From assembly GCA_035477455.1 (NCBI GenBank), contig DATIKP010000075.1, positions 1 to 34,864 of the forward strand: 34,864 nt of DNA. Direction: 5' to 3'. This document shows, piece by piece, positions 5,267 to 34,864 of the stretch; position 1 is the first letter of the stretch, and every line of letters begins with the position of its first letter. The notes beneath the pieces were generated by a model. That model was given only the letters and a program-made list of their open reading frames with translations. It ran no database searches and was not told the DNA's origin. Source of the stretch: Atribacteraceae bacterium (GTDB taxonomy: Bacteria; Atribacterota; Atribacteria; Atribacterales; Atribacteraceae). The translations under genes and the position numbers were made by a program.

Positions 5267-5950
5267 ATGGTTTTTTTACCGTTTGATTTTTCAGTCATTT
5301 TGATCATTCCTGCCCTGATCCTGGCTTTTTACGCCCAATTGCGGGTGAAAAACACCTACCATACCCTCTCCCGGATCAGGGCTAAGGCCGGCCTGTCAGG
5401 TTCGGAGGTGGCTGCCCGCCTGATGCAGCAACTCGGGCTCCGGGTGGGGCTCGAAGAAGTACCCGGAGTACTCAACGACCACTACGATCCGTCGAAGGAA
5501 ATATTGCGGCTATCCAGCCCGGTTTATCGGGGAGGATCGGTTGCCGATTACAGTATTGCGGCTCACGAGGTCGGTCACGCTCTGCAGAAACGGGAACGCT
5601 ATGGATCTTTCGCTCTTCGTTCTTTCCTGGTTCCGGTGGCCGGATTTGGGTCCCGGATGGCCATTCCCCTCTTTTTTTTCGGCTTGATTTTTGCCTTTCG
5701 GCCGCTTATGGATATCGGTATTCTCTTCTTCAGCTTGGCGGTTCTATTTCAGCTTGTGACACTACCGGTTGAATACGATGCCAGTCGCCGGGCTTATCAG
5801 GTCCTTGACGCTTCCGGGATGCTCAGTGTCGAGGAAAGGCCGCTTGTAAAGAAGATGCTGAATGCCGCCGCGCTCACCTACGTCGCGGCAACCGCGGTTG
5901 CCGCTCTGCAGCTGATTCGTCTGCTGGTGTTGCGAGGCTCTCGGGATTGA
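5267..5950 (+). CDS. Membrane-bound zinc metallopeptidase (Zn_peptidase_2 / YugP-like)
   Basis: A 227-residue membrane protein of the neutral zinc metallopeptidase family typified by B. subtilis YugP. It has an N-terminal membrane helix (VILIIPALILAFYAQL), a HEVGHAL zinc-binding HExxH motif in the cytosol-facing loop, and two or three more hydrophobic helices after it (IPLFFFGLIFAF, DIGILFFSLAVLFQLV, and near the C terminus). Asp and Glu in LPVEYDASRRA are the family's usual third-ligand region. Substrates are unknown. Start: AGGAGG at 5253-5258 overlaps an in-frame GTG (5258) but is 8 bases from ATG 5267, so ATG is preferred. In many anaerobes this gene sits between fmt and rsmB, as here. 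Confidence 0.88.
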   Translation: MVFLPFDFSVILIIPALILAFYAQLRVKNTYHTLSRIRAKAGLSGSEVAARLMQQLGLRVGLEEVPGVLNDHYDPSKEILRLSSPVYRGGSVADYSIAAHEVGHALQKRERYGSFALRSFLVPVAGFGSRMAIPLFFFGLIFAFRPLMDIGILFFSLAVLFQLVTLPVEYDASRRAYQVLDASGMLSVEERPLVKKMLNAAALTYVAATAVAALQLIRLLVLRGSRD

Positions 5951-5964
5951 AAACGCTCAAAGGG

Positions 5965-7255
5965 GTCCGGAATCTGGACCATCTCCCTGTACCGGTCTGA
6001 AATCTTCTCTTTCTGGGAGCGCGTCAGCTTGCCCGAATGAGTCGGACTCCGGTTTACGCAGTGCTGAATGGAAAGGTTCGGCCGGCTGGACAGTCCGATT
6101 TTCATGGTTTTATTCCCCTGCTCAATGCGGTCTTGCGGAAACTTTCCAGATAGCGGGGTTCATTGATCGAGGTTTATGAGCGATGGGAAATGGATCTCCC
6201 CGGCTGGCTAGAGCAGAAGGGCAAGAACGGATCGGTCCGGCCGCTTTGTGACGCTTAAAATATGTCTTAGCCCGGCCGCCCGTTTTAACCCTGCACCTAA
6301 GTTGGTGGGGAGAAAACCGTCAAGATCTGTGGATTGCCCGGACCCTGCGGAATCTTCCGGAGCATGCGGAAGGCCGTTTTTATATTCAGGACAGTGGTTC
6401 TATCGTTGCGATCGATGTTTTGGATCCCCGCGCGGAGGAAACGATTGTGGAAATTGGGCGCGGGACTGGAGGCAAGACCTTCGGATAGCTCGATCGACGG
6501 AAAACAAAGGAGTCATTACTGCCGTAGATTGTCATCGGAAGAATCTTGATTCCACTGCAATAAGTAATTTTGTTGCAAAAGAACGAAGGAAGCCGGGGCC
6601 TAAATTGCCTAAATCAGCCGCCGAAATCGCCGCATTTTCGAAGTAAATATGCCAGGGATGGCCTTTTCAGCAGCACTGCAACCGGACGTGGTCATTGAGG
6701 CGTGCCAGAAAATGCCAGATGAGGCGGGGCTGATGGCAACGGGGCCTTGCTGAAATGAGTTTTTGCAGCAAAATCAATATTGAAATTTTGCTGAATCGGG
6801 TAAGGCGGACAGGCATCGACATCATCGTTCCACGTTGCACCGGAGCGCAGGAAATGGAGTTGAATCTGTCCGGGAAAGCGGACCGGGTTATGGTTGATGC
6901 TCCCTGTTCCGGCCGGGGAGCCTTGCGGAGAAACCCGGAAATCGCAATTACGATCACCCAGCGTGACGTTGCCATGCTGGCCGAATTGCATAACGTATGT
7001 TGATTGAAGAGCCCCCGGTCTGGTGAAATTTGGCGGGTTTTTGGTATACTGTGTTTGTACTTTGACACATCAAGAAACAACTGAATTAGTCGATGTTTTT
7101 TGAGTTAGAGACTGGCCAGATCTTCCGGAAACTTTCGGTTCATGAAGTCATCCGGAAGGGATTTTCGGGAGACACGGCCGTTGATGGAACCTGGCTGGAA
7201 TTGTGGCCGCACGAAAATGATTCCGACGGATTTTTAATGCGGCCGGGAGGAAACA
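5965..7255 (+). pseudogene. rsmB: rsmB (16S rRNA m5C967 methyltransferase) pseudogene, split by a repeat
   Basis: Pieces of RsmB can be read in order in shifting frames: LDHLPVPV then a TGA (5998-6000), NLLFLGARQLARMSRTPVY, LLNAVLRKLSR then a TAG, LPGWLEQ, FYIQDSGSIVAIDVLDP with a degraded SAM-binding GTGGKT, VITAVDCHRKNL up to 6547, then after the repeat NIEILLNRVRRTGID, VDAPCSGRGALRRNPE (motif IV), VKFGGFLVYCVCTLTH (motif VI, nucleophile region) and a C-terminal LELWPHENDSDGF. About 90 residues of the N-terminal NusB-like domain are missing. At least three stops and several frame changes make it non-functional. Removing exactly 6548-6775 joins CTT to AAT in frame (RKNLNIEILLNR), so the repeat inserted into a gene that was then still readable there. 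Confidence 0.88.
6548..6775 (-). repeat. MITE-like repeat, copy A (228 bp, inside rsmB)
   Basis: The longest of three related copies in the window, lying in reverse orientation to copies B (14880) and C (31741). The outer ends are imperfect inverted repeats: GATTCCACTGCAA on the left against GATTTTGCTGCAA read inward from the right (10 of 13). Just inside the left end, ATTTTGTTGCAAAA (6567-6580) pairs with TTTTGCAGCAAAAT (6761-6774) as inverted repeats matching at 13 of 14 bases, which suggests a 208-bp inner element. The core differs from copy B at about five of 110 positions. No transposase frame is present. Copy A carries about 98 bp that copy B lacks. Confidence 0.85.
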
Positions 7256-14819: not shown

Positions 14820-14879
14820 CCGGTTGGCGATATTGCGGGGGATAAACGAGGAAATGGAAAATAGAAGGAACAAAAGAAT

Positions 14880-15009
14880 GATTTTGCTGCAAAAACTCAT
14901 TTCAGCAAGGCCCCGCTGCCATCAGCCCCGCCTCATCTGGCATTTTCTCGCACGCATCAATGACCACGTCTGGTTGCAGTGATGCTGAATTACTTATTGC
15001 AGTGGAATC
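14880..15009 (+). repeat. MITE-like repeat, copy B (130 bp, between pta and ackA)
   Basis: Runs from GATTTTGCTGCAAAA to TTGCAGTGGAATC. It matches copy A in reverse complement over both ends but lacks an internal block of about 98 bp, including the hairpin and the inner inverted end. Its outer ends pair imperfectly (GATTTTGCTGCAA against GATTCCACTGCAA). It fills most of the 238-base gap between two genes that would normally be cotranscribed. Confidence 0.85.
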
Positions 15010-15057
15010 AAGAAATAAAACCAGAACGATCGGTTTCCAGAAAAGGAGATGGAGAGC

Positions 15058-31740: not shown

Positions 31741-31871
31741 GATTTTGCTGCAAAAACTCATTTCAGCAAGGCCCCGTTGCCATCAGCCCCGCCTCATCTT
31801 ACATTTTCTCGCACGCATCAATGACCACCTCCTGTTGCAGTGATGCTGAAAAGGCCATCCCTGGCCTTTTT
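31741..31871 (+). repeat. MITE-like repeat, copy C (truncated)
   Basis: The left end GATTTTGCTGCAAAA and the core of about 110 bases match copies A and B at roughly 95%. The other end with GATTCCACTGCAA is missing; the copy stops at the hairpin 31851-31871. That hairpin is also in copy A (6651-6667) in weakened form. Confidence 0.82.
31851..31871 (+). terminator. Intrinsic terminator inside repeat copy C
   Basis: Perfect 7-bp stem AAGGCCA / TGGCCTT with loop TCCC, followed by TTT (five T in all at the 3' side). It would end plus-strand transcripts from the rplS-yraN operon, although it arrived with the repeat. Confidence 0.72.
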
Positions 31872-31874
31872 GCG

Positions 31875-31910
31875 GTGCGCCCGGCATGGGCGCACGAGGA
31901 GCTAATGTCA
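31875..31910 (+). mobile_element. Possible 5' scrap of a group II (class C-like) intron
   Basis: Four bases after the terminator's T-run comes GTGCGCCC-GGCAT-GGGCGCAC, a perfect 8-bp hairpin (31875-31895). It starts with GTGCG, the conserved 5' end of bacterial group II introns, and group IIC introns insert just after terminator hairpins. Only about 35 bases remain before the IS256 remnant, so this is an inference from position and motif. Confidence 0.35.
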
Positions 31911-31928
31911 AATGTTGGGTATGACCCA

Positions 31929-32521
31929 TCAGGCGGCGTCCACATTCCGGCGAACTCCCTCGACGAATATAACTCCTTCCACCACTTCTGCTAACCGGGG
32001 TACTCCATCCAGCTTCCTCCATCTCTTCCCGGCACTGAGGAAGAGTTGGTGGACCATGCTGAGCACGGTAACCCGGGACCCGCAGTTCTTGGTCTTGTTG
32101 GTTCTTGGTCTGACTGTAGCCAGGGTGGATTCCACGGGGTTGGTGGTTCTCAGGTGCTTCCAGTGTTCCGCCGGGAAGTCATAGAAGGTAAGGAGCACCT
32201 CCCGGTCTTTTTCCAGGCAGTCGGTGGCCTTGGGGTATTTGGCCGGGTACTTGTGGAGGAAGTGATCGAAGGTTTTCTCGGCATCTTCCCTGGTTTCGGC
32301 CATCCCGATCTGGGGGAGGTCAGCCTGGGCTTTCCCCTGCACACTCTTGGGGAGATAATTGAGCACATTGGCGGTCTTGTGCATCCAGCAGCGCCGGGGA
32401 TGGGTTTCGCCCGAGGGCTTCCGGAAAATCGTTGGTGGAGATCCCCCTTCTGGTAGAGCCAGGGGATGGGCTCCTCCCCTCCCTTTCTTTGGTCCCGTAC
32501 CCGGCACTTAAAAGGCAACAT
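31929..32521 (-). pseudogene. IS256-family (mutator-type) transposase, internally deleted
   Basis: The minus strand encodes a C-terminal block of about 150 residues: PRRCWMHKTANVLNYLPKSV, MAETREDAEKTFDHF, EVLLTFYDFPAEHWKHLRTT and NPVEST with the catalytic Glu, ending at a stop at 31929. These are IS256-family hallmarks. Before it only a scrap of the N-terminal region survives: WLYQKG and, one frame over, ISTNDFPEAL (family LYLKGISTGDFQEAL). Roughly 190 residues holding the two catalytic Asp residues are gone, and there is a frameshift in a G-run. No intact copy or clear terminal repeats are in the window. Confidence 0.85.
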
Positions 32522-32579
32522 TGACTTAGACGAAGAGGCAGTTGAAAAAAATCGCGAAGCGGAGTTGGGCGAAGATTAA
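32517..32579 (+). pseudogene. 3' remnant of a possible antitoxin gene
   Basis: A 20-codon frame, NIDLDEEAVEKNREAELGED then TAA, has no start and is cut off by the IS256 remnant. The NIDLDEE opening resembles the RTNIDLDEE stretch of some VapB antitoxins, and the frame sits just ahead of a VapC-like gene. The rest does not match well. Assigned mainly by position. Confidence 0.28.
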
Positions 32580-32840
32580 GATCATTGTTGATACCTCGAT
32601 CTGGATTGAATATTTCAAAAACCAGCCTGAAACTGTAGCTATAATTGAAAAGGGACTTTTAGCCGGAACAGTATATATGGTTGGACCGGTTGTGGCGGGG
32701 CTTTTGCATAGGGTTAAGACCGAAAAAGAATTAAAGAAGTTAACCGATTGTCTAGATGCGGTTCCATTTATTGAAAACAACTTACAGGACTGGCGATTAG
32801 CCGGTATAATATCTTTTGTCCGATTTTACACAAACGGGCT
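32542..32840 (+). pseudogene. VapC-like PIN-domain toxin, 3' truncated
   Basis: The first 95 or so codons read as a PIN-domain ribonuclease: KIIVDTSIWIEYFKNQPE with the first metal Asp, a GTVYMVGPVVAGLLHRV stretch where the conserved Glu of the AELL motif is Gly, KTEKELKKLTDCLDAVPFIE and a W-x-x-A helix. Similarity stops near 32840, before the last acidic residues of the PIN site; the frame then reads into the 5' part of the next gene as unrelated sequence. The only in-frame start is TTG 32542. The loss of the Glu and of the C terminus makes it inactive. Confidence 0.7.
32781..32810 (+). promoter_or_regulatory. Candidate promoter inside vapC remnant
   Basis: CTTACA (32781-32786), 18 bases, then a perfect TATAAT (32805-32810), ending 48 bases before the helicase ATG. 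A plausible promoter for the helicase gene, formed in or kept from the toxin remnant. Confidence 0.45.
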
Positions 32841-32857
32841 AGCAGGGTGGAGAGTCG

Positions 32858-34864
32858 ATGGCAAGCGAGGTTGCTGTGCGCCAGGGTCAAGTAGTAAGGG
32901 GTCCTCTCTTCAACGAGCCGATGCGCGTAGAGACAGTGTGCGCCGGCGACGATGGAGTTTGGACCCTTGGTCTCGTAGGCACCCGGACTGAGCGCTTTCG
33001 CCGGGTCACACTGACTGCCCGCGACCTTGCCGGGCTCACCATCCTTAATGCTGGTTTTAAGTTTGATGGAGATGCCCGGCTCCTCGGCCTGGGCTTGCAG
33101 GCTCATGCCCTCGGCATCGCTTATGAGTTCGATCCCTATTTTGGCCTCTCCATTTCCCGAGTCGATCCCTTGCCCCACCAGCTGGAAGCGGTCTACAACT
33201 ACCTTTTGAAGCTGGCCCGCGTCCGCTTCCTGCTCGCGGACGACGCCGGCGCCGGCAAGACCATTATGGCCGGGCTGCTCATCCGTGAGTTGCAGCTGCG
33301 GGGTATGGCCGAAAGGATTTTAGTCGTCTGTCCGTCCAACCTTTCCTTCCAGTGGCAGCGTGAACTCAAAGAAAAGTTCGATGAGAAGTTCATGGTCCTC
33401 AAGGGAGGAGAAATCCGTGACCAGTTTGGGGTAAATCAGTGGCTGGAGCAGAAAAAGGTCATCACCTCCCTGGACCTGGCCAAACGCCACGACATCCTTC
33501 CCGGACTCAGGCAGGTCCACTGGGACCTGGTCATCGTGGATGAGGCCCACCGCATGTCCTGGACGCCCCCGGCGCGCAAGACTGCGCGGTACGCTCTTGG
33601 CGAACTCCTCCGGGACACCTCGGATCACCTCCTGTTGCTCACCGCCACCCCGCACAAGGGCGACCCGGCCAACTTTACGCTGTTTTTACAGTTACTGGAC
33701 GCAGACACCTACGCGGATGTCCGCTCCATCCGGGAGGCCATGAATCAGCGCCGGGCACCGTTTTACCTGCGCCGTACCAAGGAGGCCATGGTCTATTTCC
33801 CGCAGCGCCGTCCCGATGGTACGTGGGTGGCCGAGAAGATTTTCACGAAGCGCATCCCGAACACCGTTGACTTCCAGATCGATGGATCGGAATTCGATCT
33901 CTACGGGGAGATCACCAGATTCGTGAAGCGCCAGAGCGCCAAGGCCGCCGCAGGGGGCGATGATCCCCGCGCCCGCGCGGTCGGCTTCCTGATGTCCCTC
34001 TACCAACGCAGGCTGGCCTCCAGCACCTACGCCATGCGTCACAGCCTGGATAACCGCGCCCGGAGGCTCGAGGAAGGCCTGAAGCGTGTCCAGGAACTCG
34101 CGCGGCTGGCCCCGCCCGACTTGCCGGACCCGGATGAGATCGAGGAGATGGAGGAGCACGAGCGCGAGCGCCTGGAAGAGATGCTCGAGGCCATCACGCT
34201 CGCCGGAAACGCTGCGCAGATTCGCGAGGAGATTGCCGAATTACGTCAACTCGCCGGGCAGGCGCAAGCCGTGGAAGGCACCGGCTCAGAAGCCAAGCTG
34301 TCGAAGCTTAAAGACCTGCTCCACCAGGAGGGCTTCTTCGACCACCCGGACAGGCGCCTTCTCCTGTTTACCGAGTTCAGGGATACGCTCGACTACCTTA
34401 TGGGCAAGCTCAAAGGCTGGGGGTTCCGCGTCGGTTGCATCCACGGCGGCATGAAGCCCGGCTCGCGCGACGAGCCCGGCTCACGGCTCTACTCCGAACA
34501 ACAGTTCCGCGAAGGCGCCATCCAGGTGCTCGTAGCCACGGAGGCGGCGGGCGAGGGCATCAACCTTCAGGTCTGCAACATCCTCTTCAACTACGACATT
34601 CCCTGGAACCCGAATCGCCTTGAACAGCGCATGGGACGTATTCACCGTTACGGCCAGAAGAAGGACTGCCTGATCTTCAACTTTGTGGCCACGAACACCA
34701 TCGAGGGCCGCGTGCTCCAGCGGCTACTGGAGAAGCTTCAGGAAATCCGGGACGCGCTCGACGACGACGCGGTGTTCAACGTCGTCGGCGAAATCCTGCC
34801 GGCGGCGCATGTGGAACGCATCCTGCGGGACTACTATGCCGGGAAACTGGGCGGCGCCGACCTT
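32858..34864 (+). CDS. SNF2-family helicase, DrmD-like (partial, runs off window)
   Basis: An open frame of 669 codons from ATG 32858 (GGTGGAGAG just upstream) to the window edge without a stop. A small N-terminal domain (GQVVRGPLFNEPMRVETV, about 1-60) precedes two helicase lobes: LPHQLEAV (Q-motif-like, 105-112), LADDAGAGKTIMAGLLIRE (motif I, 127-145), LVIVDEAHRM (DEAH, 228-231), LLTATPHKG (motif III), a coiled insertion (about 400-470), LLLFTEF (motif IV), ATEAAGEGINLQ (motif V, 560-571) and EQRMGRIHRYGQ (motif VI). This is the pattern of large SNF2-type proteins such as DISARM DrmD, which act with methyltransferases in phage-defence loci. No partner is visible. Codons are much richer in G and C in third position than the core genes, which points to horizontal acquisition. 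Confidence 0.85.
   Translation, partial: MASEVAVRQGQVVRGPLFNEPMRVETVCAGDDGVWTLGLVGTRTERFRRVTLTARDLAGLTILNAGFKFDGDARLLGLGLQAHALGIAYEFDPYFGLSISRVDPLPHQLEAVYNYLLKLARVRFLLADDAGAGKTIMAGLLIRELQLRGMAERILVVCPSNLSFQWQRELKEKFDEKFMVLKGGEIRDQFGVNQWLEQKKVITSLDLAKRHDILPGLRQVHWDLVIVDEAHRMSWTPPARKTARYALGELLRDTSDHLLLLTATPHKGDPANFTLFLQLLDADTYADVRSIREAMNQRRAPFYLRRTKEAMVYFPQRRPDGTWVAEKIFTKRIPNTVDFQIDGSEFDLYGEITRFVKRQSAKAAAGGDDPRARAVGFLMSLYQRRLASSTYAMRHSLDNRARRLEEGLKRVQELARLAPPDLPDPDEIEEMEEHERERLEEMLEAITLAGNAAQIREEIAELRQLAGQAQAVEGTGSEAKLSKLKDLLHQEGFFDHPDRRLLLFTEFRDTLDYLMGKLKGWGFRVGCIHGGMKPGSRDEPGSRLYSEQQFREGAIQVLVATEAAGEGINLQVCNILFNYDIPWNPNRLEQRMGRIHRYGQKKDCLIFNFVATNTIEGRVLQRLLEKLQEIRDALDDDAVFNVVGEILPAAHVERILRDYYAGKLGGADL

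Follow-up and report, generated by a model that had tools for sequence, protein, structure and literature searches.

The repeat that occurs in three places of the window (34,864 nucleotides of contig DATIKP010000075.1 from an Atribacteraceae bacterium) is very probably a MITE moved in trans by an IS1182-family transposase, with a 6-bp AANNTT duplication made at each insertion and with some copies decaying in place later. The observed part of this reading consists of the copy number, the end points, the duplications, the near-absence from genes, the absence from the relatives searched and the end similarity.

The MITE unit is 228 bp long, carries no gene and has the ends GATTTTGCTGCAAAA and GATTCTACTGCAATA; it is too short for a transposase gene, and it is present in many copies in the 2.16 Mb host genome. 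At least 41 distinct full-length copies (225-229 bp) were found, and a whole-genome search returned at least 40 near-full-length matches (~228 bp) with 90-100% identity. The 41 full-length copies have a mean divergence of 4.7% from the 228-bp consensus and a mean pairwise divergence of 7.3%, and the terminal inverted repeats sit at constant end points across the copies. At least 59 left and at least 70 right ends were recovered when the host genome was searched with the end pattern, the reversed pattern gave 0 matches, and chance is excluded as the source of the end matches. The assembly consists of 174 contigs, some of which break off within MITE copies; the family has about 70 copies according to the end matches, a number which has to be taken as an estimate because some contig-end pieces may be two halves of one copy. 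The other copies are cut by contig ends, internally deleted (130, 148 and 166 bp), carry an intron fragment (534 bp) or are only 35 bp long. The preliminary description had recognised copies A, B and C in the window as they are, and its count of three was a large underestimate.

Copy A (6548-6775, minus strand) is a full-length 228-bp MITE, as judged by the consensus of the 41 copies, and lies in a decayed rsmB. Its left terminal inverted repeat, GATTTTGCTGCAAAA, occupies 6761-6775 on the minus strand and its right one, GATTCCACTGCAATA, 6548-6562 on the plus strand; the outer ends GATTCCACTGCAA / GATTTTGCTGCAA and the inner site ATTTTGTTGCAAAA given in the preliminary description are all present in this copy. 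The target duplication reads AATCTT at 6542-6547 and AATATT at 6776-6781 on the plus strand (AATATT/AAGATT in the orientation of the element), with agreement at 5 of 6 positions. Copy B (14880-15009, plus strand) is a 130-bp internal-deletion derivative between pta and ackA, flanked by AAGAAT (14874-14879) and AAGAAA (15010-15015), which also agree at 5 of 6 positions. Copy C (31741-31872, plus strand) comprises the left 132 bp of the MITE and breaks right after the hairpin AAAAGGCCATCCCTGGCCTTTTT. The loss of 98 bp from copy B (130 versus 228 bp) and of one end from copy C had been noted correctly, and the shared core, earlier put at roughly 95% identity over about 110 bases, corresponds to 131 nt at 93% between A and C and to 116 nt at 94% between A and B. 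Beside copy C lies a truncated IS256/Mutator-type transposase (31929-32507, minus strand; Pfam Transposase_mut, 5.7e-19), and the window also contains an open frame which by eye resembles a PIN-domain (VapC-type) protein (32542-32991, plus strand).

Alignment of the copies, proposed earlier as a check for end points and target duplications, yielded constant ends and 6-bp duplications. Among the 39 copies with readable flanks, 32 match at five or more of the six positions (16 perfectly and 16 with one mismatch), whereas 5 or 6 matches were reached in 15% only when the flanks were swapped between copies; the mean 6-bp flank match is 5.08 for the true pairs versus 3.47 for the swapped partners. 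Duplication lengths from 2 to 12 bp were scanned and a peak appeared at 6 bp only. The target is AT-rich and of the AANNTT type, with A prevailing in its left part and T in its right part.

MITE insertions avoid genes: long ORFs were hit at 1 of the 25 joined sites, whereas 83 of 100 control positions, taken at a distance of 600-900 bp, fall in such ORFs, and the sole genic insertion among the joined sites scored is copy A in rsmB. Removal of copy A together with one 6-bp repeat rejoins a single reading frame across the rsmB site, and the rejoined piece matches Pfam RsmB/F (2e-11); it was from this insertion that the preliminary description had inferred the mobile nature of the repeat. The gene itself (16S rRNA m5C methyltransferase, window 5950-7010) is, in view of its further frame breaks, a multi-frameshift pseudogene amid an otherwise intact housekeeping cluster. 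For another copy, L012, which reads AATGTCAAATGGT, MITE, AATGTTGGG, an unoccupied homologue of the insertion site was found in the window at 31904-31919 (AATGTCAAATGTTGGG); this homologous site matches mainly on one side, the right flank at 74% over ~170 bp and the left over a short stretch only. The target duplications, the empty sites and the IS1182-family ends described below support the proposal of the preliminary description that the element is a non-autonomous MITE moved in trans.

No MITE copies were found in 60 other genomes searched, 9 of them from the same family, and elsewhere in the phylum the end motif is all but missing. Neither the end motif nor the transposase was found in viral contigs. 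A scan of public genomes with the right end of the MITE (20 bases) produced two informative matches, in a Peptococcaceae MAG (CROMO_A_245, G062) and in an NPL-UPA2 MAG (GPS119, G061); matches to the 20-base pattern in a Planctomycete, Prochlorococcus and Maribacter lie inside other sequence and look like chance. The end motif is also present in G070, G071 and G075, within the class of G062. The Peptococcaceae genome holds a 243-bp MITE family of its own, which resembles the host MITE in its near-identical ends, its 6-8-bp duplications, an end-like site 20 bp in and the occurrence of copies with a group II intron, and differs from it in its unrelated interior and in its host; no 35-bp solo copies were established in G062.

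A further copy of the end sequence stands inside the right end of the MITE, starting ~19 bp in (in copy A ATTTTGTTGCAAAA, 6567-6580, plus strand). It had been taken earlier as the border of a 208-bp element nested in the 228-bp one, an interpretation which did not hold: all 39 scored duplications are outside the outer end, and no copies were seen that end, or have a duplication, at the inner site. Since the Peptococcaceae MITE also has such a site (weaker and similarly spaced, 20 bp inside one of its ends) and no copy ends there, a third, subterminal repeat of the end is a better reading of the inner site than a separate nested element. The autonomous elements examined have no end copy at that subterminal position. 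In IS1272 of Staphylococcus, a 1,945-bp member of the IS1182 family with a 548-aa transposase and 16-bp ends, a variant is described where the 25-bp end is duplicated in tandem (PMC5678879), an arrangement comparable to the subterminal site of the MITE.

The subterminal site would also explain six 35-bp solo copies, for which it is the putative recombination partner. Two 13-bp repeats, TTTTGCWGCAAAA, are found in the MITE, one near the left end and the other 20 bp inside the right end; a deletion from TTTTGCTGCAAAA (near the left end) to TTTTGCAGCAAAA (inside the right end) predicts the 35-bp GATTTTGCAGCAAAATTACTTATTGCAGTAGAATC, and the six solos correspond to this product with 0-2 mismatches. 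Their 6-bp flank matches are 6, 6, 5, 5, 3 and 3, and deletion in place is their most likely origin. It is unlikely that the solos, the only copies concerned by this alternative, are self-transposing minimal elements or footprints, or stem-loop targets which the MITE can replace in the manner of IS1272. Such an origin would fit with the retention of both outer ends, with the perfect 6-bp duplications of two of the six solos and with the reported replacement of stem-loop targets by IS1272 without duplications (PMC5678879); however, the solos agree with the deletion product within 0-2 bases and have A or T as the middle base, as either repeat predicts, a transposase that has to pair both ends would hardly find room on 35 bp, and the IS and MITE copies examined make ordinary duplications. 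That the solos would be transposase products, e.g. failed or replacing insertions into palindromes as proposed for IS1272, is in our view very unlikely; if it were true, one IS1182-type system would both duplicate its targets and swap full-length and solo forms in place. For the MITE itself an IS1272-like stem-loop replacement was discarded, since 6-bp duplications are present, as they are in its IS relatives.

Besides the deletions favoured here for the solos, some copies have probably been altered by group II introns. Copies C and L031 have one breakpoint in common, which comes after a GGCC hairpin with T's behind it. The 534-bp copy L031 (2081-2614 of this locus, on host contig C10) contains a fragment of a group II intron reverse transcriptase (Pfam RVT_1, 9e-17), and in G062 a group II intron was recognised by Rfam inside a 243-bp MITE copy, the loci L090 (contig C107) and L088 (contig C26) of that genome having the same right flank. 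At the truncation point of copy C, GTGCGCCCGGCATGGGCG (31876-31893, plus strand) forms the same junction as in L031 and is probably the 5' remnant of a group II intron, an assignment based on its similarity to the intron starts of L031 and G062, as these 18 bases are too short to prove an intron alone. A terminator scan returned no site in copies A and L026 under the rules of the scan, for which reason the hairpin is described as terminator-like only.

The end motif led to candidate autonomous partners in other genomes. In G070, G062, G061 and G075 it marks the 5' boundary of an insertion sequence, and where the contig continues a transposase gene starts ~150 bp downstream of the motif; all these IS copies are truncated or stop at contig ends, and the G070-type IS, whose ends are the closest to those of the MITE, is readable at its 5' end only. 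The transposase of these elements has a match to NCBIfam IS5_1 and a weak one to Pfam DUF772. Its homologues on haloarchaeal plasmids (~588 aa) match NCBIfam IS1182 (NF033551) with E~1e-35, below the curated cut-off (121.8 versus 270 bits), and exceed the cut-offs of Pfam DDE_Tnp_1_6 and DUF772; 7-bp duplications were seen in three of the haloarchaeal plasmid relatives. It is through these homologues, which score below the curated IS1182 cut-off of NCBI, that the partner transposase can be placed in the IS1182 family.

A wider search detected relatives in 37 of 399 genomes, with complete IS relatives of 1.9-2.0 kb in G162, G189, G090 and G341. The IS ends are GATTCCCCTGCAAAAA (G162/G189), GATGTCACTGCAAAAA (G090) and GATTCTGGTGTAAAAA (G341/G224), and the duplications of the IS1182-type elements are 6-7 bp long (e.g. 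AATATT, AAGATT, AACAAC, ATTCTT, AAACAAG, ATAACAT); no clear duplication was visible at some other IS copies, namely three of the four in G162 and those of G224 and G344. MITE and IS ends agree at 10-15 of 16 end-anchored positions, a level reached by at most 61 of 20,000 shuffles and usually by 0-5, and the MITE has its ends in common with IS1182-type elements of other genomes. These insertion sequences are like the MITE in their terminal 16 bases and in their 6-7-bp AT-rich duplications; in contrast, they are 1.9-2.0 kb long and encode a transposase of ~540-560 aa, whereas the MITE encodes none. No similarity was found between the MITE interior and the IS elements, so that the interior would give no support to a direct descent of the MITE from the IS by internal deletion.

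The preliminary description had recommended looking for a transposase gene that the end sequence borders; this was successful in other genomes and negative in the host genome. In the 174-contig host assembly no cognate transposase was detected with the bacterial N-terminus, the haloarchaeal homologue or the IS1182 model, an absence that is provisional because of the number of contigs; the family search of the host yielded no more than a C-terminal scrap of IS1182 and a DDE ORF that looks unrelated. An intact IS1182-type partner would have GATTYTRCTGCAA ends. An autonomous partner in the same genome is common for MITEs, although it is not required. As no cognate is found in the host assembly, we infer that an IS1182-type transposase did the work in trans; its source would have been lost, would have escaped the assembly or would have been there for a short time only.

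At locus L177 (host contig C24, around 5680-6036) there is an intact DDE transposase ORF of 540 aa which by eye resembles IS1634 and has two MITE copies nearby. It is highly improbable that a transposase of another family, such as IS1634, mobilised the MITE and that the likeness of the ends to IS1182 is convergent. The C24 ORF lies ~1.8 kb from a MITE copy, IS1634 duplications are 5-6 bp long, and the lack of a cognate IS1182 transposase in the 174-contig assembly would agree with such a mobiliser; but the ORF was dismissed as it has no matching ends on its borders, and IS1182-type elements are indicated by the end matches (10-15 of 16), by the GAT at the start and by the AT-rich duplications of 6-7 bp. 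Extremely improbable is a structured RNA element, regulatory or a terminator, under selection, for although the fold of the MITE is somewhat better than that of shuffled sequences (z about -2.5), a hairpin with T's behind it is present and the MITE is intergenic, it duplicates its target, interrupts a gene, is absent from relatives and has no Rfam match (window; loci L001, L012, L031 and L059), and a functional RNA was rejected since covariation is lacking (double change in only 2 of 62 consensus pairs, a negligible covariation term).

According to the preferred reading, an IS1182-family transposase acting in trans would cut and join the two outer MITE ends, and each insertion would duplicate a 6-bp AT-rich target (AANNTT). 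Some copies would then decay in place: deletion between the 13-bp repeats would leave a 35-bp solo with the target duplication kept, other internal deletions would give rise to forms such as copy B, and group II intron sequence would land beside the internal terminator-like hairpin in copies such as C.

The family is well supported, but its kind of element is an ordinary one, with a few unusual details. Like MITEAba12 of Acinetobacter (PMC6382973) and bacterial MITEs compared in outline, it is short, non-autonomous and multi-copy, has inverted ends and relies on a transposase supplied in trans; specific to it are the third site, in subterminal position, and the solo forms. We found no description of an IS1182 MITE in a limited search of the literature. 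The present family would be an IS1182-type MITE whose ends, target and copy number are precisely defined, and unrelated bacteria have these ends around other MITE interiors. As two MITE families have the subterminal site in common, it offers a testable prediction on transposase binding at one end. The solos are reminiscent of solo LTRs and illustrate a way in which MITEs may shrink to a short scar.
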